A DNA stretch of 64,000 nucleotides from the NCBI RefSeq assembly GCF_000340215.1, contig NW_006921538.1:62001-126000 (forward strand). Reading direction: 5' to 3'. The notes below the pieces were generated by a model that worked only from the letters and a program-made list of their open reading frames with translations, had not been told where the DNA came from and made no database searches. The translations under genes were made by a program, and so were the position numbers. Each line of letters begins with the position of its first letter. Within the stretch, counting starts at the first letter, position 1. The DNA comes from Pseudocercospora fijiensis CIRAD86. Its lineage: Eukaryota; Ascomycota; Dothideomycetes; Mycosphaerellales; Mycosphaerellaceae. Below are positions 10,411 to 34,600 of this stretch, piece by piece.

Positions 10411-10878
10411 TAACCCTTCAGACTTCTTATATATACGAGTATAGATTCTATCTCTAGTACTAGGTCGCCTACGCTAAACTATAGTACTACTATTTCTAGG
10501 TAGGTTAGAATATAATCTAAGACTACGACCTTTAGTACTAGCTATTTATATTTAAAGACGCTAAATATAATAATAGCGGCTACTCCTTAATCTATAACTA
10601 AGTAGCGACTTCCTACGCTACTAATAAGCTCTACGACGACATTAGTACGCCGAGCGTATCTAGTTTCTTATACTATAAGCGTATATACGATTATACCGAC
10701 GATCTCCGCTACTAGATATATACTATTAGATAGCGCTACGTCGATAACTAGATACTACCTAAAACCCGATAACAAGACTAGAAGCGCTTTATTAGACGAC
10801 TTAACAGCATAAGTAGACCTTAATACGCTAAAGCTACGCGCCTTACTATAGAAGATTACTTTAGCCTCGAATTACTAC
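10411..10878 (+). pseudogene. Unidentified coding relic, left part (split by the hAT element)
   Basis: A Tyr-rich frame with only TAG/TAA stops runs up to the hAT insertion (...E-D-Y-F-S-L-E-L-L-L). When the hAT element and one copy of its 8-bp duplication are removed, the frame continues at 20827 without a shift. I do not recognise the protein. It could be the C-terminal part of the MULE-like relic at 1973-3378, separated by Gypsy copy 2, but this is not shown. Confidence 0.35.
10871..10878. repeat. Left 8-bp target-site duplication of hAT
   Basis: ATTACTAC, repeated exactly at 20819-20826. Eight-base duplications are the hallmark of hAT insertion. Confidence 0.9.
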
Positions 10879-10901
10879 TAGACCCCGTAGGAGTTCGGGT
10901 T
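10879..10901 (+). repeat. Left terminal inverted repeat of hAT
   Basis: Matches the right end (20796-20818, reversed) at 19 of 23 positions. Two of the four mismatches are C/T or G/A transitions of the kind RIP produces. Confidence 0.8.
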
Positions 10902-11054
10902 GGTTTAGTTTAGTTTACTAAGCCGAAGATCTGGTTTAGTTTGGGTTAGTTTGCTAAGCAACTATAGGATTAGCCAGTTCGAACTGTAGAATTTATCGGT
11001 TTCTAAGAAGTATAAGAATGTCTACGTAACTCGAAGCAAGCCCTTTATAAGATA

Positions 11055-11090
11055 CGAGAGTGTAGCCGGTAGCGTAGCCGGCATTTTTCA
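11055..11090. repeat. GCCGGCTA-type dispersed motif cluster (first of about 14 sites)
   Basis: Short copies of TAGCCGGC/GCCGGCTA occur near 11060-11086, 11995-12031, 12601-12611, 13154-13216, 13388-13418, 14455-14476, 15288, 16866-16897, 17876-17925, 19279-19310, 19849-19915, 20505-20530 and 20633-20658. They sit between or within genes, one inside the intron of the H3 gene at 12.6 kb, and are rare outside the element. Confidence 0.6.
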
Positions 11091-11210
11091 GTTGTAGGAA
11101 GGTACTTATATAACCCTAAATCTATAGACAATTCGCTAAGGGCACTAACTGGTTAAAAGTGTATGTGTGTGCAAGCTATTATAGTTTAGTTTAGAAACTG
11201 TACTTGTTGG

Positions 11211-11458
11211 GTGTAAATTTTATCCTTTCGCTCGCTATTTAATTCCCTAACTACTCGGTAGAATATTGTTGTCTAGATCTAGGTAGAACTTGTCGATTTC
11301 CCTAGGGGCCCTCCTTGAGAAGTTCTAGTACTTATTAGGTACAAATTTTATCCTTTCGCTCGCTATTTAATTCCCTAACTACTCGGTAGAATATTACTAT
11401 CTAGATCTAGGCAGAACTTATCGATTTCCCTAGAAGCCCTCCTTAAGAAGTTCTAACA
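11211..11458. repeat. Tandem duplication of about 130 bp in hAT
   Basis: Two direct copies (starting near 11211 and 11341) of a sequence running from AAATTTTATCCTTTCGCTCG to GAAGTTCTA. They differ almost only by C/T and G/A changes, so the duplication predates RIP. Confidence 0.75.
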
Positions 11459-11464
11459 CTTTCT

Positions 11465-11860
11465 AACTAAACTATTCTCTAACATTAAGTACTAGGATAG
11501 CTCCTCCCTCGGTATCGGCATAGTATATAAAAGAGCTATAAGGCAGCTTTATAGAACGTTCTACTAGTTACTCGCTATACTAAGGCCGAATACTAGTTCG
11601 TTCCTTAGAACTCTTAGTTATTTAGGAGATATTAAGGATAGGGCAGGCAGTAACTTCGTATTATATAAGGAGGTAGAGGCTACTATAGAGGAGTCCTTTA
11701 ACCTATAGAAGATAGTAAAAGATATAGAGGCAGCTACAGGTCTAGGTACCTAGTTGAATTTCTAGTAGGTAGAGTATAAGGATATTTAGAGGGAGTATTA
11801 GGTAGAGTTACGAAGGCAGGTATATAATATAGTCTAGAAAACAGGGATAATACCTATAAC
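11465..11860 (+). pseudogene. Unidentified plus-strand gene of the hAT element
   Basis: A frame of about 130 codons interrupted only by TAG. It contains S-F-L-R-T-L-S-Y-L-G-D-I-K-D-R and, later, Y-K-E-V-E-A-T-I-E-E-S-F-N-L, a charged, probably helical segment. It may extend upstream into the tandem duplication at 11211-11458. It is the only gene I see on this strand of the element and is convergent with the H3 gene at 12.24-12.85 kb. I do not recognise a domain. Confidence 0.35.
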
Positions 11861-12239
11861 TATAAGTATTAGGCTCTTTACCCTTCCTTATTTTTCCCTG
11901 TTTTCTTTTAATAAAAATCCAAACTAATACAAATCAACCGGAATGTCTATCTTCTTTTAGTTCTTTAAAGAACCTAGTAGCGTAGCTAGTAGCGTAGTCG
12001 GTAGCGTAGCCGGTAGCGTAGCCGGCCTTTTAACTCCTTAGTACTAACGGGATTTTCGAAGACTTCTATTCCGTACGGCTAATAAAGTATACTATACTAT
12101 ATATATATACTTAGAGAGTATTTAGAGCGCGGTATATAGCGCCGTATAATAGCGGCTTATTTCGTATATAGAAAAGCTTATAGACGACACTACAAACATC
12201 CTTTTTACTAGAACATCTATCCTATCTAGCACTATCTCG

Positions 12240-12850
12240 AATATAGACATTCTAGCCTTTTAGAATCTAATCGAGTGCTTTAAAATCCTTGTCTATAATC
12301 GTTATAGGCTTCGCGTAGATAGCTATAAGGTTAACCGCTAAAATAGTATTAGTATAGTCCGAAAAGAGGTAGAAGAGAAACATATATTCGAAGATACGAC
12401 CTAGGTAGGCTTCTCTAGCCTCTTAAAGGGCGCCTATCGCGGAGGCTTAGAAGCAAAGGTCCGTTCTATAATCCTAGGCAATTTCGCGAATAGGTAGTTA
12501 GAAAGGAGCTTTGCGGATTAGAAGCTTAGAACTCTTCTAACACTTCCGAATCTTACGGAGGGCTACGGCTAAAGAAGGATTAGTAAAAAGACAGTAAGAA
12601 TGCCGGCTACGCTACTAGCTATAAATAGGACTTACTTCCTAGGCGCTATCGACGCTTCGTACGATTGTTACTACTAGTAGTAGAAGCGCTAGTTGTCGTC
12701 TTACGTAGAGCCTTACCCGCCGTTATTTTACGCGGAGCCTTACTCGCGACGCCCTTTCTAGCACCGGAGCTAGTAGTAGTAGTAGTAGCCTTCTTACGTT
12801 AATATACTATACTCGTTCTACTATTTCCGGTCTTGTTACGACCTATAGAA
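12240..12850 (-). pseudogene. Histone H3-like gene, near-canonical, with intron (hAT cargo)
   Basis: A core histone H3 relic. The N-terminal tail (about 12755 down to 12636) has A-R-K-G...S-K-A-P-R-K...G-K-A-L-R-K, resembling the H3 K9-K27 tail, followed by a basic linker. Removing a 67-nt intron (12569-12635) joins R-L-G to T-V-A-L-R-K-I-R, matching H3 R-P-G-T-V-A-L-R-E-I-R. Then come L-L-I-R-K-A-P-F-x-L-P-I-R-E-I-A and A-S-A-I-G-A-L-x-E-A-R-E-A-Y-L (helices 1 and 2). After a gap that may hold a second intron, A-I-Y-A-K-P-I-T-I-I-D-K-D-F follows (loop 2 and helix 3). TAG/TAA stops replace the Gln of H3 in YQK, PFQRL, AQDF, RFQ and ALQEA. The start codon is not preserved; candidate ATA (from ATG) codons lie upstream of the tail. 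Confidence 0.88.
12569..12635 (-). other. Spliceosomal intron in the near-canonical H3 gene
   Basis: Read on the minus strand it starts GTAAGTCC, has a branch-like TTACTAATC and ends TTCTTTAG. Splicing restores the conserved G-T-V-A-L codons across the junction (GGA, then A joined to CC). It contains one GTAGCCGGC motif. Confidence 0.8.
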
Positions 12851-12999
12851 GCAGTAGGTCCCTTCTTACGAAGCGTCGTAACTTAGTTAAGTAGACTCGG
12901 TATTATAAAAGTCGTCGAATTAAGGAAAAAAGTACGTTGCGAAGGTATACGAAAGCGCGCGTAGAGCGAGGGTATTACGGAGATAGTAGATATAGAGCG

Positions 13000-14450
13000 T
13001 AGAGGTATAGGTATCGATACGAAGGTTAAATATAGCGAGAGAGGTAGTATCGCGGTGTCGCTAGGTAACAGAGTAAGCGTCGCGTAAGCCTATATTATAG
13101 TAACGTTAGAGTAAGGAAAGAAGGTAGGTACGGCTAAAAAAGGCAGGTACGGCAAACTTTGAAATATAGCCGGTATATATAGCCGGTATAGTAATAGGCG
13201 AAAGCCTCCTTTTAATAAATAGCCGGCGTAATAATAGTATCCTACTATAGTATAGATATTCTTTAGTAATGCCCTTACTAGCTATAGTAATCTTATAAGT
13301 AACCTAGGCTTATTGCTAGGAAATATAAGAAATATTAGGTAGGCTATACTAAACAAGCTAGTTATTTAGCAGGAAAAGGCCTACTACCGTCTCTATATAC
13401 CGGCTACGAGTGCCGGCTATCGCTCTAAATTTAACTCCGCCCTATCTCGGAGGCTAAGGTACCGAGCGGAAACCCTATAGCTTATATTTACTCGGTTATC
13501 GCGGAGCGCTTATAGGTAAGGTATTAGAAAAGAGTATAAAAAGTACGAGAATAGTATCCTAGGATATAGGTCGTAAGTAAATAAGAGTAGTACGCCTAGT
13601 TATTTATATAGTACGTTACTCTATACGACTAAGAGCCTATATTATCTCGTACTTCGCTTATAAGACCTCGACTCTACTAATATACTATTATTCTCCTACT
13701 CGGTCGCTGTCTTAATTCTTCTTCGAGTTACTAGACTTAGTACGTATCTATAGCTATATAATAGCGCTACGTATTATAGAGAATTAACTCCGCCGTATCT
13801 CGAAGGCTAAGGTACCGAGCGGAAATCCTATAGCTTATATTCACTTAGTTATCGCGGAGCGATTATAGGTAAGGTATTAGAAAAGAGTATAAAAAGTACG
13901 AGAAGAGCATCCTAGGATATAGGTCGTAAGTAAATAAGAGTAGCACGCCTAGTTATTTATATAGTACGTTACTCTATACGACTAAGAGCCTATATTATCT
14001 TATACTTCGCTTATAAGACCTCGACTCTACTAGTATACTATCGATCTCCTCCTCGGTCGCTAATACGCTATCTTAATTCTTCTTCGAGTTGCCGGACTTA
14101 GTACGTATCTATAGCTATATAATAGCGCTACGTATTATAGAGAATTTCTCGTTAAAGTTTCTCTCTCGTAGGCTTACTATCTGCCTCGTAGTATAGAGGA
14201 TTAAAGTACTAATACTAAAGAATCTCCTTATAGTTAGGATACTAGGGCTCCTTAGGACCTTTGTGTTTTAGGTCTAAATAGAGACGTATTATAAACGTTC
14301 TATCGCCCTTTCGCTTACTACCCGCTAGGTCGCGATATACGAAGAAACTAATCTAAATATAGCTCGTCTCTATAATAGCCGGGTAAATATAGAGCGCTAG
14401 GTTTCTACTTCGTACCTTAGATTTAGGGACGGCGCGGAGATAAAATTAGA
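13000..14450 (-). pseudogene. Unidentified minus-strand gene of the hAT element
   Basis: The frame beginning near 14440 reads basic residues (P-K-S-K-V-R-S-R-N), then F-F-V-Y-R-D-L-A-G-S-K-R-K-G-D-R and L-Y-L-D-L-K-H-K-G-P-K-E-P. Only TAG/TAA stops interrupt it. Further down it runs through an internal tandem duplication (13431-14144), so its C-terminal part is present twice. It follows the divergent H3 gene on the same strand. I considered a DUF3435-type tyrosine recombinase because of the R-D-x-x-G and basic context but could not find a catalytic set. The function is unknown. Confidence 0.45.
13431..14144. repeat. Tandem direct duplication (353 and 361 bp) within hAT
   Basis: Copy A is 13431-13783 and copy B 13784-14144. 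Both start TTAACTCCGCC and end GTATTATAGAGAA. They differ by scattered transitions plus a few small indels. Confidence 0.85.
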
Positions 14451-14535
14451 AATATAGCCGGTACTTATAGCCGGCAAAAGGATACGAAAGTAGGCCTCCT
14501 CCTAGGTTAATCTAACAACTAAATACAATTTCTAA

Positions 14536-15177
14536 CTAATCCGCTATAAACCGACGCCGAATTTTAGCTAGAAGCTATATATCTTTATTTTAAAGAGTAA
14601 CCCGCTTCGTATAGATAGTAAGGAGGTTAAAAAGCTTAAGCTCGGTTACGAGAAATGCCTCTATAGCTTCCTAAAGAGCACTAATCGCTTTAGCCGTAAA
14701 TCGTATACTAGACTAAAAATCTAATATAATTTCTCGGACGAGTCGCTAGAAGGGAGTCTTAGGGATTAAAAGCTCGGTCCCTCTTTTATTTTAGAAAAGC
14801 CGGATCTAGTAAAGGGCAATAGTACCTAGTTTGAAGCGCCGCTTCTTTATCGTTAAGTCCTGCCTTATTCCCTTTTTTTTAATAGAAAGATAACTTTTCT
14901 TCGTAATAGTCTTCGTCCGCCTACTCTTTTTAGCCTTCTCCTATCTACCTAAAGCCTTCTTGTTTTTCGGTACTGTTTTCCGAGGAACCCCCTTCCTTCG
15001 TATATACTACGAAGAGCCTTACTCTTCCGATATCTCGTTCTCGCTATAGTCTCCCTATACTTAGCTTGCTTTATCTTTGCCCTTTAGCCTCTAAGGATAT
15101 TTATCTACGCGTTTAGGCGACGAGGGTATATCGGTAGGACCTAGAAAATTAATAAGTATATAATCGTAAGGAGACAT
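14536..15177 (-). pseudogene. Divergent histone H3 variant, intronless (hAT cargo)
   Basis: A 213-codon frame from a preserved ATG (15177). Residues 1-110 are a long tail, Lys/Arg-rich from about 59. The H3 fold starts near 112: R-R-F-K-L-G-T-I-A-L (113-122), E-L-L-I-P-K-T-P-F-x-R-L-V-R-E-I (135-150), A-I-S-A-L-x-E-A-I-E-A-F-L-V (164-177), and Y-T-K-R-V-T-L-x-N-K-D-I-x-L (189-202). Thirteen TAG/TAA codons interrupt it; those in the core fall where H3 has Gln (YQK, PFQRL, ALQEA, DIQL). E-A-F-L (not E-A-Y-L), a two-residue insertion before T-E-L-L and the long tail recall CENP-A-type variants. Loop 1 has canonical H3 length, which argues against a typical CENP-A. It lies directly after the transposase gene. 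Confidence 0.9.
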
Positions 15178-15439
15178 TAATGCTTCTTACCTTCTAGAAC
15201 AAATAGTCTTCTATTAAACCGCCTTAGTAGGTTATCGTTAGATTCGAATAAAGGATAGTAGCTTAAGGAAGGGGAAGTAGCCGGCTTAGGAAGGCCCGAA
15301 GAGCCGAATCCTTAAGGCATATTTATCTTTAAGAATATAGGGAAAGGGAAGAAGGAGAGGAAGAGCGAATAGAGAATTAGAAATAGTCCGTAGATAAGTA
15401 GGGTCGGTTGCTATAGCAACTAGTCTATTTAGGTCCTAG

Positions 15440-17860
15440 GAATTCGAAATATATTTCGGATATATACTAGCTATATACGCCGGCTATATTACCTTATACG
15501 TAAACGCTTCGTCTCCTTAAAGCTACTCTAAGCCTATATACGTTTCCGCTTCTCGACCTAGTATCGCCTTCTACCTCCGCCCTCCTCCTCTTCGTTATCG
15601 CTAATTAGGGTTTCGCTTAGACTAAATTTCGTATTCTCTTCGCGCTCCTAGATTTCTTCGATCTTAAGGTTTTCTAATTCCTCGATTAGCTCCTTTAGTA
15701 TAATCTTTAGTAACCTACCTTAGCGATTCTAGTAGAGGAGATAGTATCGGAATACTATAATAGATTCGAAGGTAGTAGGAGAGTATATTCGATTAAAGCG
15801 GCCCTAGTAACGAGCGATACTAAAAGACCTCTTATAGCCTATACCTACGCTCGGGATAGCGAGGACGTCCCGAGCGACCGACGCTATCGTTAGAAACTTA
15901 GGCTCTAACCGCTACTATATAGCGAGAATATCGTCTCCGAATTCGTCTAGAAGACCGGTAAGATCTAGAGATTATTAGCCCTCTTTCCGAGCCTACGGGT
16001 TTATACTTACTCGCGCGCCGATAGAGATCGAACTCTTCTTTATTTACTTTAGTAGTTGCTTCCTCTTCTGCCTCTACTTCCTACCTACGAAATAGGTATA
16101 ATATCGGAGCCTTCTAAACCTTCTTTTTCTTTATAGGAGCTATATTTAGACTAGTTTCTTTCCGACGCTCGTAGAACATCTTTTCTAGAATAGTTTAGTA
16201 ATGCTTCGGCTATACCTCGTCCGCCTTCTATTCCGGCCTCTACTAGTATATATCCTTTTCTACCGGGTTAAGTAAGTACGTAACGCTATAGATATCCCCG
16301 AACGACTTAAAGGTAGCACTATAATATTTATATAACTTAGTATAGGAGGTGTCTATAGCTTTCGTTATAGCTACTTTCTAGGGAACGCTCTTCTTAGCTA
16401 GCTTAGCTACGGTTTCCTCGAGCTCGTTAAAGAGCTAGTTATAGTACGTAAAGATAAGGTAGATCGTCGGTCCTTAGGTTCTTCTAATTATAGTAGTAAC
16501 CTTCGCGTAATACTTACTAATATCGACGAGATACTCTACTTAGCGCTATTCGGCGGCGGTAAGGCCGAGCTACTTAATACCCTCGGAACTCTAATAGATC
16601 TCGAGAGCAGTACGTAAAGTATATCCCCTCGTAACTATATAGAAAGTCGAATCGAACTAGGTCTTAACGTCTTAGGTAAAACGGAGTAGGCGCTAAGGAG
16701 GCCGCTTTTACTATCGCTTATTCTATACGATATTCTAGGCATCGGTTTTAGGGCGCTTAATTAGGTTCTTTTAAATAGCCTCGAATTAGTTATATCTCTA
16801 TAAGCTCGAGTTCGTATATATTGCTAGACGACGAAGCTAGAGAAAAAGAGTTAGAACTATACTAGGTTGCCGGCTATAGGTACCGGCTACGGATAAAAGT
16901 TATACCTTATATAAAACGAGAGCGAGGCTCTCTACCTTATCCCGTCTTATTGCTATAACGAGTTTCTCGACTTTCGACTTTGCTTTATCCTTATCTAGGA
17001 TCTTCTATTACTCGTCGTTTAATAGTGCAATTTTAAGCGTCTTAAAGAGGGCTCGGATCGCGATTTAAACTATATAAGCGAGGTAGGGAAACTTCTATAG
17101 GGATATAACTAGCAACGACGTCGGCTCCGATTTAATAGGGCTAGGGCTATTACTAGGCTCCTCTTTATCGTTATTATCGTACGTATTATTATACGTATCC
17201 GGAATCGTAGCGAGCTTAATATTCGGAAGATTAAGCTAGATTATAGACCTTATAATCTCCTCTACGTACTCGACCCTATCGATACAATTAGTAATTTTAA
17301 AGATATATACGAGTAAATTGTATATATAACGCCTTATATAATGTTCGATTATTACTAGCGTTATCCGTAGTAATCGAGATTAGTTTCGTTATTACGCTAA
17401 CCCTATCTATTACCGTATAGACAAGCTTCGCTATATCCTTACTAGTATAGGAACCTAGAATTTTAGGGAATCCGATTATAAGTTCCTAGAGTTTCTAATC
17501 CGAATTAATAAAGTATAGTATAATCGAGAGGAAGGAGGCTCTTATAGTCCGGCTTAACTAGCTATCGATAGTAATAGCTACTCGGCGAATATTACGGAGG
17601 ATCTCCCGAATATCGTCTAACGTAGCCTCTTTGTTCTTTTCGAATATAATACGCTAGGTTATCGCGCCGAGAAATAGGGGAGGGTAGTTTATAAGATATA
17701 GGTATATCTTCTATATAGACTCCCTTTCGTAGAAGTCTTCCGGAAGACCGTTTATAGCTAGTATTTTGTTTACTAGTTACTTAAAGTCTTCGGGGGAGAA
17801 ATCGGTAGCCTTTAATCCTAGAGCTTCCTTAAGCGTAGCCTATAATAATTAGCTAGACCT
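15440..17860 (-). pseudogene. hAT-family transposase (RIPed)
   Basis: The enzyme that cuts and moves the element. Reading down the minus strand, a helical region (about 17850-17450) leads into I-S-I-T-T-D-N-A-S-N-N near 17360, the second catalytic Asp block of hAT. Next come an acidic linker, then A-Y-I-V-Q-I-A-I-R-A-L-F-K (about 17060-17100) and F-D-S-T-F-Y (about 16650). A helical stretch with Y-Y-S-A-T-F-K-S-F-G-D-I-Y lies near 16300. The C-terminal dimerisation region at about 15800-15900 reads V-A-R-D-V-L-A-I-P-S-V-G, then R-S-F-S-I-A-R. TAG stops replace Gln and Trp codons. Introns are likely where GCCGGC motifs occur (16866-16897, 17876-17925). An N-terminal BED finger was not identified. 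Confidence 0.88.
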
Positions 17861-17949
17861 CTACGGTTAATTAAAGTAGCCGGAATCTATAGCCGGAATC
17901 TATAGCCGGCAGCTATAGCCGGTATTTTAGAAGACGTACCTCTTTCTAG

Positions 17950-18700
17950 AACGCTATATCTATATTAACTCTCCTCTCTCCTTAAGATTCCCGATACCGT
18001 TTAGAATAGAGATAGTTCGTAGGCGATAAGTTCCTATTCCCTAGTTTCGGGTATTTTAAGATTAAACCGTAGAAGTTATAGACAATTACTAGTTAACCTT
18101 TAAGTCGAGAAGTCGTATAACGGTATAATGCCCCCTCTATAAAGAACTTCTAGAATGTGTCCGTTCGCTCCTTACTCCCCTATCGTATCGAGTACTTCCG
18201 GAGTTTATACTCCTTTAAATGTAAGTATAAAGGGAACTATATCTTATAGACCTATTAATTAAACTGCTCTATGTACTCGGGTTTCTAAAGATACGCCTAG
18301 CTAGCCTTTTCGAAGATTTCCGGGTTAATACTCGATATTCTTATATCTCCGAACAACCTTCTACTTAGACTCCGTAAAGGTAAGGACTAGGTAGTAGTAC
18401 CCTATAATAAATTCCTACTACTAGGATTCGGAGAGGATAAATCTAGCCCTAATCGTCGTCTAGGACTTAATAGGCTCGAAGGTAAGTATACAACCTCCTC
18501 TCGACGTTATCGTAATCTCGCTCGTATACTAGACTATTTCGACTATCGTCTCGTTATTACCCTTCCTAGTATAGTACCTAGTATATATATAATATCGGTC
18601 GGCATGTTTTAAAGTTTCGTACGGTAAGGTAAGGACTTAGGAGTAGTAGATATATACTAGTAGCTATAGGGAAATACCCTTTCTTTTATAGTATCGTATC
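17950..18700 (-). pseudogene. Unidentified coding region upstream of the hAT transposase
   Basis: Two or three overlapping frames with only TAG/TAA stops. One has G-N-N-E-T-I-V-E-I-V followed by E-I-T-I-T-S-R-G-G-C (about 18500-18600). A later one has K-P-E-Y-I-E-Q-F-N (about 18260-18300) and F-F-I-E-G-A-L-Y-R-Y-T-T-S-R-L-K-G (about 18100). It could hold the transposase N-terminal exons, or be a separate gene. I see no zinc-finger pattern, but its Cys and His codons are prime RIP targets. Confidence 0.35.
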
Positions 18701-18850
18701 GTTAGGAATAGCTAGGTAGTAAATAGCTAGCTACCTTTTTTTTTGTTTCCTAGCTACCTAACTACTAGATTTTTTTTCTAGCTACCCTAGCTAGCCTAAC
18801 TACTAGAATTTCTTTCCTAGCTACCTTAACTATCTAAATTTAGCCTTCTA
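18700..18850. repeat. CTAGCTACC simple-repeat tract with T-runs
   Basis: Repeated TAGCTACCTA/CTAGCTACC units separated by T-rich runs (for example CCTTTTTTTTTGTTTCC). It divides the two unidentified minus-strand regions, probably as intergenic or intronic sequence. Confidence 0.5.
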
Positions 18851-18854
18851 TACG

Positions 18855-20220
18855 GCGGCTCTCTCCTACTAACGGAACCGAGCTACTATACCTAACGAAT
18901 CTAAGCTCGTTTTTAGTCTTATTCTATCCTCTTTCGGTATAAGATACTCGATAAGCAAATGCTTAGGCCGAGTCTAACTACGAAACCTAAGACTAACTAA
19001 TAGCTCTATTAACTAATCCTAATCCTCGAACTCCTTCCGCTTCTTAGTAAAGACCTTAAAGAGCGCTCGAGCTTCGTCGGGTACCTACGGAGTAGTCGAG
19101 ATAAAGCCGTATCGCTAAAATAGGTAATCCTTCGGAGGCTTATATAGAGATTTAGAGAATTCTAACGCTAACCTATCCTACTAGCTGCTTAGATTCCGGA
19201 TACAAGCCCTCTCTGCCTTAGTAAAGATTTTATATAGTAGTAGTACTCTACTCTCGAGAAACGCTTTCTATTTAACTATTAGTATCTACCGGCTACGAAC
19301 GCTAGCTATATATACCGAGTATAGAATATTTACCTATACCCCTTCCTCCTTTAGTAATACTTCTACCGTCCCTAGATACCTAGCCGCGATCGCATTAATA
19401 GTAAGCTACTTTGCCTTTATAGACGTAAAGGCTTCGCTCTAATACTAATAAAGAAACTTCTACTCTATATCGAGGATATAAAGACGACTAGTCTCGATTC
19501 TAATCCTTACTAGCTTTTCGTAGTAGCTTTAACTATGATTTTCTAGATTAATAGGACTTATACCTTAGCCCTTTACTAGTATCTCGTCTCTTTAACTATA
19601 CTCGATCTACTCCTAGCGCTTATCGTCTATAGCGTTAGGCCCTAAGACTATACCTATTACTAGATCGACGTATAGTATCTCCTCGCTTTTTTTAGTTCCT
19701 TTATTCTTAGTATTAAGCTCTATCGCGGTATCCTAAACTCTAGTATTATTGTTCTCGGCTATCTAAATATCTCCGTTACTATCGGTCGTATCGATAGAGG
19801 TAGCGGCTATAGGTCTAAATGCTATTAGTTAACGTCTTAAAGAAAAATATGCCGGCTATAGCTGCCGACTACGGCTACCGGCTACGGCTACTAGCTACGG
19901 CCGCTAGCTAGATTAACTTACGCTACTAGAACTTTACGCTCGAAAACTAGCCGCAATTCTTTCCTCCTCTTAGCCTTCTCTTAGCTTATCTTCTTATTCT
20001 GACCTTTACTTTTTTCTATAGGCGCTAGCTATCGATAGAATACCTTATTCCGCGCCTTTCTTCTCTTATCCTTAGCTCTTTTATCCTTATCTATCTTCTC
20101 CTTTCTCTCGCGGTCTCGTACGGAATTCTTCTTCGTAGAGTACTCCTCTTTAGTCTTACGCTTTTTAGTTAGACGCTTAGGTAAAACAAACTCGCGGTCT
20201 TTAGTTCTATCTTCTATTTA
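18855..20220 (-). pseudogene. Unidentified basic protein gene, first in the hAT minus-strand array
   Basis: The N-terminal part (20210 to 19930) is strongly basic (R-E-F-V-L-P-K-R-L-T-K-K-R-K, then long Lys/Arg/Glu runs), a nuclear-targeting-like and helical region. After a gap rich in GCCGGCTA motifs (19849-19915), probably intronic, the frame continues with N-T-K-N-K-G-T-K-K-S-E-E and I-K-A-K-Q-L-T-I-N-A-I-A-A-R-Y-L-G-T-V-E (about 19340-19450). It ends with A-L-F-K-V-F-T-K-K-R-K-E-F-E (about 19030-19060) and a closing segment near 18870. Only TAG/TAA stops occur. No domain is recognised. Confidence 0.45.
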
Positions 20221-20379
20221 GCGTACGGCGCGCTTCTCTCTTACTATTATAAGGAAAAGGGGCGGGGGCGTAGCGTATAGTAGTTATTATCGGTATAGGT
20301 ATAGAGGAAGAATTTAAAAGATATAAGAATATCGCGAAGCCCTAATTGTTACCGCCTACGTAACGTTATATAGGTAAGC

Positions 20380-20690
20380 TTTCGCAACTACGGTAACTAC
20401 GCTCCGGTAACGGCAACTGTGCCCTAGTAACGGCAACTACGCCCTAGTAACGGTAACTACGCCCTAGTAACAGTAATAGAGCGTAGTAAATATAACCTAG
20501 TAACTATTATAGCCGGCAATCGTAGCCGGCAGTCGAATAAGAGTGTCCTTATAGTAAAACTACGCCCTAGTAACGGCAACTACGCCCTAGCAACGGTAAA
20601 AGAGCGTAGTAAATGTAATATAGTAACTATTATAGCCGGCAATCGTAGCCGGCAGTCGAATAAGAGTGTCCTTATAGTAAAACTAATACA
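20380..20690. repeat. Subterminal tandem repeats at the right end of hAT
   Basis: A unit of about 20 bp (ACGCCCTAGTAACGGCAACT) recurs five to six times from 20395 to 20600. A block of about 120 bp containing it, GAGCGTAGTAAAT and two GCCGGC motifs is present twice (ending at about 20565 and 20684). Subterminal repeats are common transposase-binding regions in hAT elements; that role is inferred. Confidence 0.7.
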
Positions 20691-20795
20691 GTCTCTAGTT
20701 TAAACTAGGAATCTATATAGTTCGAAAAAACCAAACCGGAACTAGGGAGCTAGTTCGCCGCTAAGAAACCAAACTATATACGTTTAGTAGTTCGG

Positions 20796-20818
20796 AAACC
20801 GAACTACTATAGGGTCTA
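20796..20818 (-). repeat. Right terminal inverted repeat of hAT
   Basis: Reversed, it begins TAGACCCTATAGTAGTTCGG, pairing with the left end at 10879. Confidence 0.8.
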
Positions 20819-20826
20819 ATTACTAC
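20819..20826. repeat. Right 8-bp target-site duplication of hAT
   Basis: ATTACTAC, identical to 10871-10878. Confidence 0.9.
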
Positions 20827-21250: not shown

Positions 21251-24050
21251 CCTCTATAGACTATTTCTACCTTAAGTAAGCGAAAGGCGCCGGCGACGGT
21301 AAGGTATAGTAAGAAGCGAAAATAAGTTTATATATCGATCTACTATAATACAAACTAATAATACCTAGATTTAGTCTATACCGCTATCTCTTTAGCTTTT
21401 TTAAGCGATAGTAAGGTTAGATACTATCCCTATCCTATACGACGTAATAATATTACGTAGATTACGGTTTTACTAGGGGTTAGTAGTAGAAACGGATTCT
21501 TAGTATACGCCGACTTCTAATCTATTATAAGTCGTAGTAGCTACTATAGACGTATTCGTAACTATACTAGCGCTAGCGCTATTAATAGCGCCTACCGACC
21601 GTACCGTTACCTAGCCTAAGACTATACCGTACTATAGTACCGCCTATATAAGTTCGATTAAGCTAAGCGATACGTAAAATAGGCTAAATCGTTTTAAACC
21701 TCCTTATTCCTAAAGATATCTTAGTAGATATACTAGGACACACGTCCAGCCGTACATAAACTGCTATACCTACGCGATATACTACGCAAAGAGTATCCCT
21801 ATTAGTAGCTAAGGTAGTAGAGGGTAGAAGGTAGAAGATAGAGGGTAGAGGATAAAGCGAAGTAAATAATATATAGTATACTATAGTAAGCGAAAGGAGT
21901 CGAGCGCTTCGTTAATAGTAATCGCTTTATATATATATACACACACATACACAACACTACCCTAAGCGACCCTATCACTACTCCGTACTAACGATATATC
22001 TCTATAGCTATAGCTAGAGCTCCTAGTATAAATATGCTAAAAAGCGAGGAAAGTATTAGTAAGAATAGCTAGAGAAGTAGAAAGCGCGAGCGCGATAGCC
22101 CGGGCTGTTGTTTTCCTATAGAAGAGCGAGCTACAAGTCTACCTACTACGGACATTTATAAAATATTACTAAGTACTAACCTATTCTACTACCTAAGCCG
22201 CGAACTTACTATAGTAGTAACTTAAGCTCCTTAAATAGCTTTCTATCCTAGAAGCTATACTCTATAAAATTGCCTAACTCCGATACTTAGGTAGTAAGAA
22301 GAGAGAGAAAAGGCAACAATAGAGGGCGAAAGGGAGACTAGAATAGAGTTTACTAACTATAATACTATAATACCTATACTAACCGCGCCGCGTATTATAT
22401 ATATATTACTTACCGATATACGCCTCTAACTCTTAAATAGGACTAATATACGGCTATATACGTACTATAATATACTCTATAATATTAGGTAGATAGTATT
22501 CCGGTTTTATTCTCGTATCTTCGAAATCTAGTAAAAATACTAAGTTCGTACTTTACTTCCTACTAGAATTCGTTTAGTAGCCTACTTATATCTCGGTAAC
22601 GATAGAGAAGAAGATTAGACATTCGTTAGACTCTATAACGCTACTTTACGTATAGCTATAGGTATCTTAGCTAACGCTAGATTCTTTATAATTCTTATTA
22701 TTAGTAATAGATATAGTTATAGGCATTCGTAACGCCCTTCTTTATAATAAATTGTTTCTATAATAATTACCTACTCTTAATCTTTGCTTTCTTACTATAA
22801 TATCGCTAGCCTATCTAATACGAATTGGCCTTTTAGAATTATTACTTCGCTACTTAGACGTAATAGGGATATAACTTTCTAAGATAAAGACGATTTCGAA
22901 TTATTCTTATAGCTATAAGCGTATATCTAATCTATAGCTCGCGCGTCTTATAATCCTACTAATATTATATATACTAGAATAGGGCTACTCCTATTATATA
23001 GAGTATCTTTACTAGCGCTAGAATTACTACTCTCTCTAGAACTATATATAAATACGCTCTCTCGATTAGCTCTATTCTTACTAGGCTCGCTAGACTTAGC
23101 TCTAAATATATTATCTAGACTACCTCTAAGCCTATCTAAATTTAGATCCTCGCGTATTATAGATATTAGAATACTATATCTCGGTATTAAGCGTCTACTC
23201 GATAAAGTAGCGATCTCTTAAGACGATTAAAAATAGTTTAATATTCTATAGATATTATAAGAAAAAAACAGGAGAAGTAGAAAAGAGTCTACCTACTATA
23301 GAATAGGTTTAGCGCTCCGAAAGCCTTCTAAAAGGCTATACGACTTTCTAAGTCTAAGCCTTAATACTATAGTTATTAAGATTAGTTCTACTTTAACTAA
23401 ATAGGCTAATCTAGTCTTTCTATAGTTAATAGAGAGGATCGAGCGACTTACTACTATATAAAACCTAATTAATTACCTCTAAGGTATAAGCTAATAAACA
23501 CTCTAGGACTACTTAATTATAGTTAGTTAGTCTATCGAGACGCGTTATACCTAGGATTAGGTAGTTCTTAGTAAAATACTTTCCTAAGACGAAGGATAGG
23601 CTATATATAAGGGATAATATAAAGTCTATAGCGCTAAACGTCTAGAACCGTAGCTATACGATTTATATATAAACGAAGAGGTTATAATTTTCGCTTTAAC
23701 TTTACTAGATTTGTCTTTTAATTCTAGATCTGCCTGCCGCTAAGCATGCTAGTATCGATATTCTATAAATATAGAGACGTCTATCTTCGTACCTATAAAA
23801 GCAACGAATTGCCTAACGTATATCTATACCTAATTTAGGCCGGCAGTTCGAAATTCTTTCTAATTAAAAAGTAAGCCTATCTTCCCGCGAGTACAAGCAC
23901 TTACTCTAAACCTGTCTCGTACTAGCGGTGTAAGGTACGGAAAAAGTGCTCGTAGACTCGCGCTATAGTACTTTTCCTCGCCGGCGAGTACCGGAGCCCT
24001 TTTAGGAATTTGAATTAACTCTCGGAAGCATCTCGGGGGATTTCAAGCTC
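21251..24050. other. RIP-degraded sequence without a recognisable gene
   Basis: TA-rich, CpA/TpG-depleted sequence. A minus-strand frame from about 23220 to 22850 has few stops and a Ser-rich stretch (S-S-R-E-S-S-N-S-S-A-S-K-D), but I recognise no domain. A short CA microsatellite (about 21940-21955) survives. RIP signs fade between about 23700 and 24050, where the normal-composition island begins. Confidence 0.5.
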
Positions 24051-24235
24051 GAAGCGCTTAAAGTATCCGCAGTACTACCGGTATAAGGTATAGATTTGGA
24101 CAGCCGAGCAAAGCCGTAGCGACCGGCATATCAAGTACCCGCGGTATGGGTTAGGGTTTAGCGCGCACCTAAGCCTAGATCTACTGCGAGCTTCGAAGTT
24201 CGAGCAGCGAGCTTCTGTTTGGGAGCGCCATCTAC

Positions 24236-24499
24236 TTGTCTTCATTTGATAACCCAGCTTATACACCCTCAACTATGTTAGTATCGGCATCGGATACGAT
24301 TTGCAGCATGGACTCTGGCTCCCTCCACGGGGTTCTATATCTCATCAAGGAAAGCGCATCAGCTACACCCTACCGTATACGCTCGCTCGAAGACCGGGAG
24401 CTCTGCGCCGAATGCGACCTTTGCTCCTCAATAAGAAGAGACTTTGCAACGGGAAGTGCTGGAGATGGTGTGCCAAGAATAATACCCAGTGCGTTATAA
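24236..24499 (+). CDS. Short ORF in non-RIPed island, unrecognised
   Basis: An 87-codon open frame with normal codon use. A C-A-E-C-D-L-C segment (about residues 58-64) faintly recalls the Cys-containing N-terminal part of fungal HET-domain proteins, but the HET motifs themselves are absent. It may be an exon fragment or chance. It lies about 190 bp upstream of the coiled-coil gene on the same strand. Confidence 0.2.
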   Translation: MSSFDNPAYTPSTMLVSASDTICSMDSGSLHGVLYLIKESASATPYRIRSLEDRELCAECDLCSSIRRDFATGSAGDGVPRIIPSAL

Positions 24500-24687
24500 T
24501 TACGCTCGATTGAAAATGGCGACAATACGCCTTTTCGGAGCTCATAAAGACTGGCCCTCCGCAAACGACACGGCTGTGACACCTTTGAACTAGCCCGAAT
24601 TGCTACATGAGAGGCTTTAGGCTGTTCTCTGCCTTCTACAGACCAGCGTTGTCCTCTCCCAAACCACTTCGCCTAGCTGCATTAGCC

Positions 24688-25809
24688 ATGGTGCTGACCC
24701 CTCCTCGCGAGAGAAGTTCTAGGGCGAAGAAACGAAAGACCTGCGGGGACGATAGAGTACCTTCAATAGAAGATCGGACAAAGCGTAATGCTACAGCAAA
24801 GCCTCTATTGGAAGCAGAAGTCAAACAGGAACCCGACACAGGTATAAGTGCGGCCTCGGACGAAATTGTAGTGGCGTCCGCCAACTCCAATATACCGAAG
24901 CTGGGGATCGAATGCTGCTCTCCAACGGCGAGAGTGCAGTTGTCCTCGGCAGAGAGCATCACGCTCAGGATTGCGCAAAATGAAATAGAGACGAAGGTAT
25001 ATCGGCTCGAGCGTGACCTTGATACCGCCCGCTGGGAGAAAGTAGCTGCAAGCGAGCTACATATGGCCCAAATCAAAGACCTTAGCAACACGCACAATCG
25101 ATGCGTAGCGGCTCTACGGGCATTCCAGCACAACGAAACAGCCTATGCCTTTCAGCTTGCGCAAGAGGTGGATCGCAGCAAGAAAGCGAAGGCCGATCTC
25201 GCAGCTGAGTTACAGGCTACCAAAATAACCACCAAGCTCAAAGTTGAGCAACTCACGGCCGAATTAGACAGATCATCGAGGCTGCGGCAGCACTCAGATC
25301 ATCTACTACAGGAGACTTGGGAAGAAAACGAAACCTTGAAGAGCTTTTTCAAGGCTGTCCTTGAAGCTAACGAGCTTCAAGTCAGACAACTTACCATCAA
25401 CGCAAATCAACAATCAAGGTTGCGGCAGAACCTGCAACATCAACTGCGAGAGGTCCGTAGAGAAGGAGAAACCAGGAAACGTGCATTTCAGGCTGAGCGA
25501 ACAGCCAACGAGCTGAAAATCAGACAGCTTACTGCCTACGTGCATAAGCAGTCGAGGCTGCGGCAGGACCTGGAGCGTCAGCTAGCACAGGCCCGAGCGC
25601 AGAATGGGAATATAGACAATACCCGTCGTATTGAAGATCTTCAGGCCGAGGGGGGCCGAGGGCGAAACGCACGTGAGCAGGCGCAGCGAGACTACGAGGT
25701 AGCCAAAAGCGAACACGCGCAGATGTTCATTGACTTCGTAAAGGAGCAGTGTCAACTTGTGCGACAATTGCAGGAGGCCCGATTTCGCCTATTCGGCCAT
25801 ACAGATTAG
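24688..25809 (+). CDS. Coiled-coil protein with 46-residue repeats, function unknown
   Basis: The open frame starts at 24607 (400 codons), but the ATG at 24688 (residue 28 of the long frame) has a better context (GCCATGG) and is chosen here. A basic, nuclear-signal-like R-E-R-S-S-R-A-K-K-R-K lies near its N-terminus, followed by a Ser/Ala-rich linker. From residue 120 of the long frame onward the sequence is heptad-rich coiled coil. It contains three repeats spaced exactly 46 residues apart (L-x-V/I-x-Q-L-T near 211, 257 and 303, each followed by S-R-L-R-Q). CA and TG are used normally, so this gene escaped RIP. It has no enzyme motif. The TAG at 25807 may be premature (see the extension entry). 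Confidence 0.7.
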   Translation: MVLTPPRERSSRAKKRKTCGDDRVPSIEDRTKRNATAKPLLEAEVKQEPDTGISAASDEIVVASANSNIPKLGIECCSPTARVQLSSAESITLRIAQNEIETKVYRLERDLDTARWEKVAASELHMAQIKDLSNTHNRCVAALRAFQHNETAYAFQLAQEVDRSKKAKADLAAELQATKITTKLKVEQLTAELDRSSRLRQHSDHLLQETWEENETLKSFFKAVLEANELQVRQLTINANQQSRLRQNLQHQLREVRREGETRKRAFQAERTANELKIRQLTAYVHKQSRLRQDLERQLAQARAQNGNIDNTRRIEDLQAEGGRGRNAREQAQRDYEVAKSEHAQMFIDFVKEQCQLVRQLQEARFRLFGHTD

Positions 25810-26064
25810 CAGCCTCTTCCATCACACCAGTACCCATCCGCCCAACCTCAAGGTGTTCCTCATTACGCAGATGTTCGCGCTCCTCGACAGGTTCAGGCTA
25901 CAGAACCTCAGACGTCCCGCACAACTGCTTCGGAGCGTCCCACCAGCGAACACCTGATGCAAGAACGAGAGCATATCGCCCTATCAAGCTATATTGCGAC
26001 GCACATCTCCCAAACATCCTCCTCTCGCAGTGCGCATATACATCAGTTCCGCCATGCTCAGTGA
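25810..26064 (+). pseudogene. Downstream in-frame extension of the coiled-coil gene
   Basis: After TAG at 25807-25809 the same frame stays open for 84 codons to TGA at 26062. It encodes a Pro/Gln-rich stretch (Q-P-L-P-S-H-Q-Y-P-S-A-Q-P-Q) and a Ser/His-rich end. The TAG stands beside CAG (GAT-TAG-CAG), so a single CAG-to-TAG change would create it, the same change that dominates the surrounding RIPed DNA. The gene may therefore be a recently truncated allele. Alternatively the extension is 3' UTR that is open by chance. Confidence 0.4.
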
Positions 26065-28699: not shown

Positions 28700-31600
28700 T
28701 AGTTAGCTTCTATACTAACTACTAGTCCTCTACCTAAATCGACCCCGGTCGTTACGGCTACGACGAGAATCGACGCGATTAGCTACGGGTCCTACCGATC
28801 TTCCGCCGATTACTACGATTTAACTCCTACCCGTTACGACGGTACCTATTCGATTTACTACCCTTCCGCACTATACCCTACCGACGCGCGAGCGCCTTAT
28901 CGGCGATCCTATTAGTACCCCGAGGAGACAGTAGTAGTAGTTTCTACCTTTAGTAGCAATTGCCTACTATACCTAGGTCTAGGGGTAGCCGCTTTCCCTA
29001 GGAGGACCTGCCCCGATAAGCTACGCTCCTCCGCCTTTAGTCGGTTCTCTATTATTATCCTCCGTTTAGAGACTATCTCGCCTCTACCCTCTTACTAATA
29101 GTTTACCCGCTTGCCGTAGCTCCTTCGGACTCGCTTCTAACTCTAGTAGAAGCCTCGAAATTAGCTAAGCTAGCGGTTTAATCGCTACCCTAGTACTATA
29201 ATCTCGGATTGCTAGATATAGAGCCCTATATCCTACGTATCTGTTCCTATATTTAGAACTACGTCGATTATAGCGAGAACTTCGCAACCTAGCTTAGGGC
29301 AAAGTACGGCCGAATCGACTTGCTTGCCTTATACGTTCTATACTATTACCCGCTCGTAGGAAATCCGCCGCCTCTATAGGCTAAAATTAAGGAACTCTAC
29401 CTAGACGCTCTTAACGGTTATAACTTCCCTAGATAGTAGGTAGTAGATAAAGGAATTCTAACTAAATCGGTTAAGGAGCTTAAAGCCGCGCTCCTAACGG
29501 TACGCGATTTACGCTATTACCGTTAATTCTACCCGGAGATCTGTCTACTACCTATAGTAGAGTAGCGCCTACCGGCCCGACTAGCTTAAGTTCTACCGCG
29601 CCCTACGGTTTCGCCTATTACTATAGTAGAAACAACCGTACCGCCGGAATAGCGTCCCGGTTCGCCTAATAGCTCGCTTAAATCGGTTTTCTTACAGAGG
29701 CTACTTAAGCTACGATATCCGGCGGACGAGAATCCTTAGAAGCTAAGAGGGCCTCTACCTAAGACTTCCCCTAAGGAACCGTTAACCGGGCCTTCCGATC
29801 TGTCGACGTCGCTATTCTAGGATATCGGTCGCGGCTAATTGCCTCTAATAAACGATAGCCTTGCCGACCCGTAGGCTAACGAGCCGCGTAGTCGTTTCTA
29901 ATATCGTACCCTAGTAGATACCTTATAGACAACCGAGGAGATCGATAGGGCGAACATCGCTATATAATAAAACCGTTAGCGTCGTAATTATCTTCGCGAA
30001 TTAGCTAGACAGAGAGGAGTCTATCTTAACGAAGTCGTATTAGACTTTCTAATAGAATAGGCGATTTTACCGCTATCGGCTACGCGTAAGCTAAGTCCGC
30101 CCTAGCCGAACCTAGGTTAATATAATTACTAGTAGAGGGTAGACGTATATATAAATGCCTATAGGTATAGCCGCTTACGTCGGGGCGGGTTTGCGCTAGG
30201 CGATCCGCCTAGCAATCCGCCTAGTAATCCTCCTAGCAATCTACCTAGTAATCCTCCTAACGATCCTCTACTACTACTACCTAGTAACTTCGATCCGGGT
30301 AATTCCTCTCGTAAGCCGACGTAGGGTTAGCCTTTGCCCTTCCCGCTATTAGACTTATAGGATCTACTACGGGAAGGTAAGAAGCAACGCTAGAAGTACT
30401 ATCGGTATAGGGATAATCCGAGTAAAAATAGATCCTTATTAGATAGTAAGGATTCGGACGACTCTAATTAATCCTCGTCGGATAACGATAGCTCCTTAGA
30501 TACTAGTTATTATAGATACGCCCGCCGTCGTAGATACTATTAGCATTATCGGGACTACGTCGCGGAATCGCTAGTTTCTAAAGCAAGTTATATCTAGGGG
30601 TACTACGCCCGCCTCTAGCGGCTATAGTTCGATCTAGCGTATCTTAGGTTCTTCGATCCTCTACTTAGCGTTATAGATTATAGCGAGGGAGACTACGCCT
30701 TAGTCGGAAACAAGATAATATACTATTCGGTATATGCTTTTATCGAAGCGGCTAAGGATTATACTTATATCGTAGGGCGAGAGATAGTTCGTCTTAACCT
30801 CTCCTTTTACTTTCGAGGGGTAGCGCTTAGTTAGTATTATAGTTACCTTTCTAGCCGCAACCGAGCAAAGCTCCGCGGCGGATACGGTCTAAAGCGCTAG
30901 GAACGTTATCTTAGTAAGAAATAGAAGGTTCCTCCGATAAAGGCGATAGATCTCCTCGATAAGTAACGCTACGACCGGTAGGATATCGCTTTAAGGCGTT
31001 TAGTAACGGACTTTATTATTAAGACGGTACGACTCGCTAAGGATACCGGCGTACGGAAATCGAACCGGCTCTTAGAAGCTTACCGTCGAATAGACCCGCG
31101 CCTCTAATTAAACATAGACGAGCTAAATTGTTATATAAAGGTCGATAAGTAGGTTACGTACTATAAGAAGTAGGTATTAATCTAGGAGTATATGCTTTCG
31201 TCCTCGTCTAATCGTCGCTAAGACGCTATAACTAGGAACAATAGCCGCGCTAGTAAGGCTATCTAGTAGAACTAATATAAAGGGAACGCCTCTTATACTC
31301 TAGCGAGCTTCGCTCTAGTAAGAGCATCCCCTAACTACTAGAACCGCGATATCGACCGACTAAACCTACTACGCCTTACTAACGCCTATTAGCAGAATCG
31401 CCTACCTAACGCCCCTTAGTAGAATCGCCTACCGCCGGCAGGAAATAGTAAAGGACCGTCGAAGGGTAGTAGCCCTACCTTCCTTTCGAAAGACCTAAAG
31501 CGAGTCGATTCGCGCCTATTTAATCGATAGGATAGAAAGCGTAACAATCGAGCTCGTAAGTAGGCTAACTTTGCCGATAATAGTAAGAAAGCAGGCGATA

Positions 31601-34600
31601 CTATAAATAATACTAACTAAGCCGACGACGGCTATCGGGAGGATAGTTAGGAGGATAATAGGAGAACTAATATAGATAATTATAGCTATTTTAGTAACGC
31701 CGGAGAAGACGCCGACTACTTTACCGACCTATACGACTCTAATCCGGGCTTAGGAGCTTACTTTACAGGTATAGGCGACCGCTCGCTATTAGCGTTAAAC
31801 TCGGTACTATAGGCTAAAGCGTCCCTACTAGCGGCGATCTAACTATTTACCTCTACGAAGTACGCTTACAAGGTCTATAAGCGGCGATTTAAGTTAGGTA
31901 ACCTTCTATACTAGTATATTTATAAGGAGTATATAGGGGCGACGACGCCTTCTACTATTATCGAACGCGTATCGGCAAACCCGGAAGTAATTTAGTCGAA
32001 GGCGCCTCCGTTAGCTTAGTAAAGTTACGCATTCCGGAATTAGCAATATATAACTTTCCCTCTTCGGTTGTTACTATCCGGTATATCTATATAGGTCTAC
32101 CTAGATACCGGCTATACGCTTACTATTGCAGAAAAAGACTTCGTTTTAAGCTATTACCCGGACGTAGAGGTACGTAAGCTATACGAACCGATCGAAATCG
32201 GCGGCATTACCGGCGCGTATCGCTCCGGGGAATACGTCGTATTAGATATATTTGTCCTAGTAGCGAAGATAGACGGTATAGTCTCCTTAGTACGAATAAC
32301 TCGTAAGGTTTACCTAGTTCCTAAACTAAAGGCAAAAATCCTAGTCGGTATAGATACGATTACTCTAGAGGGAATAAAGATCGATATTCCTATATAGACG
32401 GTTACTATAGCTAGTTAGGACAACGCCCGCTTTAAAGTAGCCGTTAAGCGTAAGAAAGGGAAGTCGGTTTACCGCCTCGTAAGGCTAGCGGAGGACGTAA
32501 TATTAGCGCCGCGTACGGTCGCCCTCGCGCTAGTTAAGTACGGCGGTAACCTCCCTAAGGGCCGGGATTTTATTCTTAACGCCGGTTTCTTAGTCTAGCT
32601 AACTAGTAATATATAGGGATTGTCGTTACAAGCTCCGCCGTTAGTAACGGCGTATAATTAGGTCGTAGACGCTAATTTTTCTTATATATATATTCGTAAC
32701 GATACGACGACTCTAGTAACGATTCGAGCCGGATAGCTACTCGGTTCGTTAAGTAATAGGACTATTGCTAGGGCCTACTATATCGACGTAGCCGACTACG
32801 GACTAGCGGGATTAAGTCCTAACGCTTTTACGGCTACGCGGGATATACTAAATATATAGCGGGAATACTAGTACGCGTTAGGCGTAACGATCTATAGTAA
32901 CGATAACTAGGTAGACTAAATCGCTATAGCGGTCGAGCGGTACCTAGAGCTTTTTATAGATCGCTAAATAGTAGTCGATATTCCTAAGCACGATTATATA
33001 CCTATCCCTATAGTACCGAACTACTTAGATCTGTTGCCGCCTCCTCGTATAATTAACCTAGGCAAGAGGGACCGTAAGGTAGTAGACAAGATATATAACG
33101 ACTTGTACCGCTAAGGGAAAATGCAATATACGACCGAGCCTACCCCCTTCGGCTTCCCGGTATTCGTAGTTTAGAAGCGGGTTACTAACGGTAAAGGCGG
33201 TATAATTAATAAGCCGCGGGCGGTAGTCGATATCCGCGCCTTAAATAAGGTAACGATCCCCGACAGCTATTAGATACCGCTTTAGGCGGATCTTTTTATA
33301 TAATTAGTAGGGTACTAGTATATTAGCACTATAGACTATCTAACCTTCTTCTACTAATAGGGCGTAAAACTAGAGGATCGTTACAAATTAACGATTAATA
33401 CTTATCGCGGCTAGGAATAGTATAAGGTCGCTATTATAGGATACTCGAATAGTGTCTAATTTGTATAGCGGAAGCTAGATTAGATCCTTCGTAACTGTCG
33501 TAGCTTTGCGCGGGCTTATATCGACGATATCGTAGTATTTTCGTAGACGTTACCTAAGCACCTCGAGTATCTAGAAGCGGTCTTCTAGAGATTAGACGCC
33601 GTAAGGATTAGTATTAGTCCGAAGAAGACTTTCTTAGGCTTCCCCTCCGCGACTCTTTTAGGTTAGTACGTTAGCGGCCTCGGTTTAGCTACGAGTAAAG
33701 AGAAGATCGTAGCGATTACCTCGCTTTAGTTCCCGGAAAACGTATAGAAACTAGAGCATTATCTCGGTCTAACTAACTAGTTGCGGCAATACATCCTATA
33801 CTACGCGTAGATAGCGGCGCCTTTATAGGCGGAGAAGATACGCTTATTAAAAGGGGCGCTAGTTACCGGCAATAGTCGTCGCCGGCACGTTGCTATTACG
33901 ACGCTAGGTAAGAACGATTAGTACCGCGACGAGCTAGTAAAAGCGTTTCGCTTATTACAATCTATATTCTACGAGCCCTCCTTCCTATACTATTTCGACC
34001 CTAATCGTCGCTTATACGCTAATATAGATTCCTTAAAAGAGTTTAGCTATAGCGCGGTACTCTACTATATCGATAGGGATCTAGACCCGATTCTGTCTAA
34101 GGGAAAGGCGCAGTTATTTCCTTACTATAAGGTTTAGCCTATTCTGTTCTTAAGCCGAGGCCTAACTTAGGCGGAGATACGATATTAGCTAATAGAGCTC
34201 GAATACTCGGGAATCGTATATATAGTAAAAAAGGTAGGCTATTTAATATATGCTTTATCGAGGTCGACGACTATCTTTATAGACTACTATACCGCGGTCG
34301 GTCTTACTAACTCGGTATCGATAACTACGACTACCGATATAGGTAAATAGAACCTAAAGTTAGTAAGGGTATCGATGTTCCTTTCCTAATATCGAGTTAA
34401 TATAGTTTACCGCCTAGGGCGGATATACCTAGTTCTAGACGCCCTTAGTCGACTTTTAGGGGACATAGAGTCGCCTAAGTTAACGCTAGACGAGGAGAAC
34501 TTAGACCTACTCTCTTACTATACCGACGTTACGCCCTCTTCGGCCGATCTAGAGGAAGTAGCCTACTTCTATACGATGTTAGTAGAGCTAGATCCGGATT

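Follow-up and report, generated by a model that had tools for sequence, protein, structure and literature searches.

Two distinct histone H3-type genes, one apparently intron-bearing, within a hAT element of Pseudocercospora fijiensis

hAT elements with histone H3 cargo

hAT transposons carrying histone H3 cargo are already in print, from Pyrenophora tritici-repentis (Manning et al., 2013; PMC3538342) and from Pseudocercospora fijiensis (Dhillon et al., 2019; PMC6710886). The first report describes a 5.6-kb element with an H3-like gene (H3L), a frame of unassigned function and a hAT dimerisation domain. The P. fijiensis family comprises 133 full-length copies of 9.5-9.9 kb with 20-bp terminal inverted repeats (TIRs) and 8-bp target-site duplications; each full-length copy contains two H3-like sequences, 784 H3-like copies were counted in 471 elements, and all H3 copies except the original on scaffold 6 were found to be inactivated by repeat-induced point mutation (RIP). 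The same H3-carrying hAT was reported from five further Mycosphaerellaceae species. Since introns were not seen, Dhillon et al. concluded that a transcript had been captured, and they described the second copy as containing an insertion of 16 residues; their transposase contained DUF659, and a dimerisation domain was not found. Here, we have analyzed a 64,000-nucleotide stretch of P. fijiensis CIRAD86 (contig NW_006921538.1, positions 62,001 to 126,000; the window), in which positions 10879-20818 (unstranded) form a 9,940-bp, RIP-mutated hAT element bearing two H3-type genes, H3-A and H3-B. The initial annotation of this stretch, made from its letters alone, knew of no described hAT element with H3 cargo, a statement contradicted by both reports.

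The window element very probably belongs to the family of Dhillon et al. (2019; PMC6710886), to which it is alike in length, 8-bp duplications, TIRs of about 20 bp, possession of two H3-like sequences and complete RIP damage; the original H3 of that study was placed on scaffold 6, and the host H3 found here lies on contig C6. It departs from the published account in two respects: H3-B shows two intron-like stretches, and the transposase gives a consistent, although sub-threshold, match to the dimerisation domain PF05699. The Pyrenophora element, as described in its report (PMC3538342), is similar in combining hAT ends and a transposase with an H3-like gene and an extra frame between the TIRs, and differs in having 5.6-kb and 2.3-kb forms, a single H3L, largely intact copies and reported expressed sequence tags. 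This likeness lies in the published descriptions; at the sequence level, Dhillon et al. detected no similarity of their element to that of Pyrenophora (PMC6710886). The 2019 finding is repeated in a 2026 paper on the genus, which gives a P. fijiensis genome of 74 Mb (PMC13041039).

A mobile unit and its two H3-type genes

The element has the termini TAGACCC...GGGTCTA, and both of its flanks carry the identical 8-bp duplication ATTACTAC (10871-10878 on the left and 20819-20826 on the right, both unstranded). Its TIRs occupy the left 20 bases (10879-10898, plus strand) and the right 20 bases (20799-20818, minus strand). By eye count, 17/20 terminal bases pair with the inverted right end, and the same ends are present in other copies, so that the short TIRs characteristic of hAT elements are recognized, as is the 8-bp target-site duplication. 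A further 20 stretches of 10 kb, picked because they resemble the left 1.6 kb of the element, gave 21 copies with the window; the fixed length of these stretches cut some right ends, and rearranged copies (e.g., L036) were missed in one orientation. A script located the left end in 19/21 copies, the right end in 11/21 and both in 10/21. Six of the ten two-ended copies are flanked by exact 8-bp duplications, each different, and L037 by one matching at 7/8 positions; all seven duplication-flanked copies contain both H3 regions. Overall, both H3 genes were found in 17/20 fetched copies and H3-B in 20/20 (coverage at least 60%), H3-A being missing from the fetched stretch of L024, L029 and L036, copies that look truncated or rearranged. 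Scanning the 73.9-Mb genome with a 24-nt left-end pattern, and tolerating at most a single mismatch, gave 478 sites, against 0 for the control. These results support that two different H3-type genes travelled inside the hAT element as one unit. The inverted ends and perfect duplication of the initial annotation were thus recovered, together with the copies with the same ends and different duplications that it had proposed to look for.

Two further observations concern the copies themselves. L032 and L035 show a second left end inside another copy, and therefore the element inserts into itself. In the subfamily L037-L040, the left part (about 450 bp) is 74-76% identical to the window and the remainder mostly 91-96%, which indicates that ends and interior have recombined or been exchanged.

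An alternative is that the H3 segments inserted on their own into the hAT element. Nested copies of the element itself do exist, but both H3 regions stand at the same collinear place in 17/20 fetched copies, and two H3-like sequences are present in each of the 133 full-length elements published (PMC6710886). The collinearity led us to reject nested insertion as the source of the H3 genes, and we hold it to be the most improbable of the readings considered. Copies lacking H3 genes, or borders of its own around the H3 segment, which the annotation had named as counter-evidence, were not seen among the fetched copies.

The H3 character of both genes was examined by profile and protein matches made with in-frame stops masked. 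When the six masked frames were searched by phmmer with canonical H3 as query, H3-A was matched at an i-Evalue of 1.3e-24 and the H3-B core at 1.6e-17. The Pfam Histone profile PF00125 scored 71.4 bits for H3-A (E 1e-19) and 36.5 bits for the H3-B core (E 6.6e-9), both exceeding its cut-off of 26.4 bits. In this comparison, the plus strand gave no Pfam match at E <= 0.1. A chance resemblance to H3 was rejected on these scores. The two H3 relics on one strand that had first been noticed are accordingly upheld, on the minus strand, and the loss of any H3 profile match under masking, the other outcome named as adverse, did not occur. Searching the genome with PF00125 yielded at least 150 scored matches out of 772 candidates; among those listed, two were without an in-frame stop, namely the host H3 on contig C6, adjoining an apparent H4 recognized by eye, and a gene on contig C5 that reads as the host CENP-A.

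H3-A is a relic of one exon (14536-15177, minus strand; 213 codons plus stop), in which a long N-terminal extension precedes an H3 fold bearing a 2-residue insertion. Counting masked stops as mismatches, fold identity is 54% between H3-A and H3-B, 55% between H3-A and host H3, and 64% between H3-B and host H3; identity to host CENP-A is 47% for H3-A and 52% for H3-B. The long divergent N-terminal tail of H3-A is what a captured centromeric H3 (CENP-A) might display. However, H3-A is closer to host H3 than to host CENP-A, the best 60 of its 176 PDB matches are named H3, H3-like or histone-domain protein and none CENP-A, and five CENP-A-type rows stand apart from H3-A in the tree. On these matches, identities and tree, a CENP-A origin was rejected as very improbable, neither H3-A nor H3-B being CENP-A-like.

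Both genes have been damaged by RIP. The element shows a TpA/ApT ratio of 1.95 and a (CpA+TpG)/(ApC+GpT) ratio of 0.17, against 0.95 and 1.24 in a control region of the same window (24001-26000), that is, the CpA/TpG depletion and TpA excess of a RIP-inactivated repeat. Across copies, the stop codons within the H3 genes are TAG (317) or TAA (152), with 0 TGA. Among 27 main-family H3-A copies these stops occupy 15 codon columns, and among 22 H3-B copies 10 columns; CAG or CAA is present in some copy at 6/15 H3-A and 1/10 H3-B stop columns. Since stops are TAG or TAA only and 24/29 H3-A copies retain the net reading frame, the data support open frames for both H3 genes at the time of RIP.

As for the transposase, its hAT-like C-terminus is readable by eye, and the motif TTDNASNN lies in the broken transposase at 17348-17371 (minus strand), the hAT assignment of which was also made by eye. 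A region resembling the hAT C-terminal dimerisation domain (Dimer_Tnp_hAT, PF05699) occupies 15813-15929 (minus strand), with a sub-threshold score of 16.2 bits versus a cut-off of 21.4. This was the sole Pfam match of the C-terminal piece in 6/6 copies: two overlapping pieces of the window gave E 0.009 and 0.011, and five further copies E 0.0045-0.12. Of the transposase motifs claimed initially, TTDNASNN is readable by eye, and the dimerisation region shows as a match below threshold.

Introns of H3-B and the transcript-capture model

H3-B (minus strand) reads as three relic exons: exon 1 (12636-12798), with an H3-like tail and a provisional 5' boundary; exon 2 (12386-12568), with the bulk of the H3 fold; and exon 3 (12252-12337), with the final stop. 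They are separated by intron 1 (12569-12635; GTAAGT...CTTTAG, containing a 12-bp minisatellite) and intron 2 (12338-12385; 48 nt, with a RIPed GTATGT donor and a TTTTAG acceptor). Both stretches were surveyed in 24 non-identical H3-B copies. The 48-nt stretch is present in 24/24, at the point where H3 reads FED/TNL, and its removal brings H3-B into register with H3. It contains a TACTAAT-like branch site and ends in TTTTAG (23/24) or TCTTAG (1/24). It begins with GTATGT in 2 copies, GTATAT in 2, ATATGT in 8 and ATATAT in 12, a gradient that is the expected effect of RIP on a GTATGT donor. Since 48 nt correspond to 16 codons, we take this stretch to be the insertion published by Dhillon et al. 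(2019), whose 16 residues seem best read as intron 2.

Intron 1 has the acceptor CTTTAG in 24/24 copies and starts with GTAAGT in 20, ATAAGT in 2 and GCAAGT in 1, being masked in 1. Its length is 67, 79, 91 or 103 nt in 22/24 copies, the steps corresponding to the 12-bp minisatellite and none of these lengths being a multiple of three; of the other two copies, one measures 102 nt and one is partly masked. The exons on either side are in different frames. In our reading of the host gene, intron 1 lies one codon from intron 2 of host H3 and in the same phase. We know of no paper reporting introns in the H3 genes of this element, our literature searches not having been aimed at introns.

These observations bear directly on the model in which a spliced host H3 transcript was captured in an ancestor and the element ended up with two copies, all being amplified and killed by RIP and one having gained a 16-residue insertion (Dhillon et al., 2019). 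The absence of introns expected of a captured retrocopy is seen in H3-A, and therefore the published reading may hold for this gene; in addition, two exon-exon junctions were recovered by Dhillon et al. from a manually edited deRIPped sequence (PMC6710886), and approximately unbiased (AU) tests reject neither a clade of H3-A and H3-B (p 0.28) nor one that also includes host H3 (p 0.15). For H3-B, in contrast, capture of a spliced transcript does not account for the two intron-like stretches with their splice signals; the common lengths of intron 1 are not multiples of three, and the exons flanking it are in different frames. In addition, the folds of H3-A and H3-B share just 54% identity. We consider this model rather unlikely as an account of both genes. 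Judged from the sequence, the evidence supports instead that H3-B carried introns when it was acquired or evolved, and that it did not enter as a spliced transcript.

Constraint, relatives and the proposed explanation

Protein constraint was assessed by counting transversions, which are not caused by RIP, by codon position between the main family and the subfamily about 80% identical to it (L042, L043); among main-family copies alone, transversions are too few for a selection test. Spliced H3-B shows 8/12/19 transversions at positions 1/2/3 (p 0.046), and its fold 6/7/16 (p 0.014), a third-position excess between subfamilies, which indicates some constraint for H3-B; selection was not shown for H3-A. 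In Table 1 of Dhillon et al., which is based on a deRIP consensus, host and element H3 differ by transversions at 23.9% of the non-degenerate sites and at 41.2% of the four-fold ones (PMC6710886), a contrast that is again one of partial constraint.

Relatives were sought by protein searches. With 7/29 H3-A copies as query, 337 proteins were matched, 120 of which were listed; the best among these (P0001; E 1.1e-32) is an intact protein of 164 residues from a 1,189-nt metagenomic contig, which shares with H3-A the two-residue insertion and a similar C-terminus. Both P0001 and P0079 (Rutstroemia sp.) differ from H3-A in having open frames; P0079 also lacks the two-residue insertion and was flagged as a long branch. 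Most other matches inspected among those listed were canonical or CENP-A-type H3. Divergent, intact H3-like proteins were also observed in Alternaria alternata (P0038, representing 16 sequences on 9 contigs) and A. gaisen (P0051); by analogy with Pyrenophora H3L, the P0038 family might be transposon-borne. The H3-B search (5/24 copies) gave 1,174 matches, and the 120 listed were largely H3-type at 51-64% identity; no H3-B-specific relative was recognized among them, five having been inspected. Two trees of the fold grouped H3-A with P0001 and P0079 (UFBoot 91; 94/88, not starred) and put H3-B in a different position. Of the alternative groupings, five were compared by AU tests, which rejected none of them (p 0.13-0.36), and a sixth was already in the tree, so that neither H3-A nor H3-B could be placed.

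Taking the evidence jointly, we consider the following explanation probable. A unit with both H3 genes between matching ends stands within different 8-bp duplications at several places in the genome. Both frames appear to have been open when RIP struck, and H3-B would have joined or arisen in the element with its introns. The two genes would represent distinct H3 lineages, which by the time of silencing had already moved away from host H3 with some constraint on the protein; the hAT transposase would have mobilized them, either as passengers or as helpers. The least certain part, that H3-A and H3-B were made as variant H3 proteins entering element or host chromatin, is possible, although we lean against it. 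The initial annotation had suggested that such proteins might package the DNA of the element, interfere with silencing or target a chromatin state. More doubtful still is a broader scenario, in which both are long-standing genes of an H3-bearing hAT lineage, derived from two separate H3 ancestors, held under some protein constraint and encoding variant histones of the transposon, and not recent copies of host H3; Pyrenophora H3L, P0001 and P0079 would then represent other branches, either of this lineage or of a parallel one.

Several observations weigh against the proposed explanation. Three of the ten two-ended copies (L022, L026, L033) lack a matching duplication. Dimer_Tnp_hAT stays below its cut-off in 6/6 copies, and DUF659 gave no match in the transposase pieces, which are heavily mutated, at the thresholds used. 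The absence of TGA stops is weak evidence for open frames because RIP depletes TG. The H3-B p value is one among five such tests, and H3-A shows no third-position excess of this kind (12/8/14, p 0.42; fold 4/1/6, p 0.23; N-extension 8/7/8, p 1.0). Finally, between subfamilies the introns of H3-B have changed less (transversions 1/66 and 0/48) than its exons, a pattern not predicted by a simple history; gene conversion or mosaic copies are a possible source of this conservation.

The element contains other features. A broken frame of unassigned function (about 350 codons) lies at 18842-19918 (minus strand); a protein search with 6/15 frame-bearing copies as query found no relative, with 0/7,996 scored candidates at E <= 0.001. 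A lysine-rich frame at 19920-20217 (minus strand) has few stops (2-5 across 16 copies) and is possibly the first exon of this gene. The minisatellite unit TAGCCGG/CCGGCTA, which is also present in H3-B intron 1, occurs at 28 sites in the element (19 in one orientation and 9 in the other); further examples are at 12007, 17877-17916 and 20510-20646. Elsewhere in the window, 30001-41000 (plus strand) holds a RIPed retroelement (RIP indices 2.04 and 0.15; RVT_1 E 4.4e-10 and SH3_Tf2-1 E 3e-9, both under stop masking) with its reverse transcriptase at about 33208-33639. A non-RIPed, GC-rich (about 0.5) island at 24-26 kb contains an open frame of 400 codons (24607-25809, plus strand), coiled-coil-like by eye and with no Pfam match at E <= 0.001.

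The contribution of this analysis is a correction: since one H3 gene of the element seems to have retained its introns, and since H3-A differs from H3-B, capture of a housekeeping mRNA should be reconsidered as a model. In relatives whose copies are intact, it becomes possible to test whether H3-A and H3-B were functional genes of the element. If true, a transposon making its own histone would provide a direct route for a mobile element to alter chromatin.

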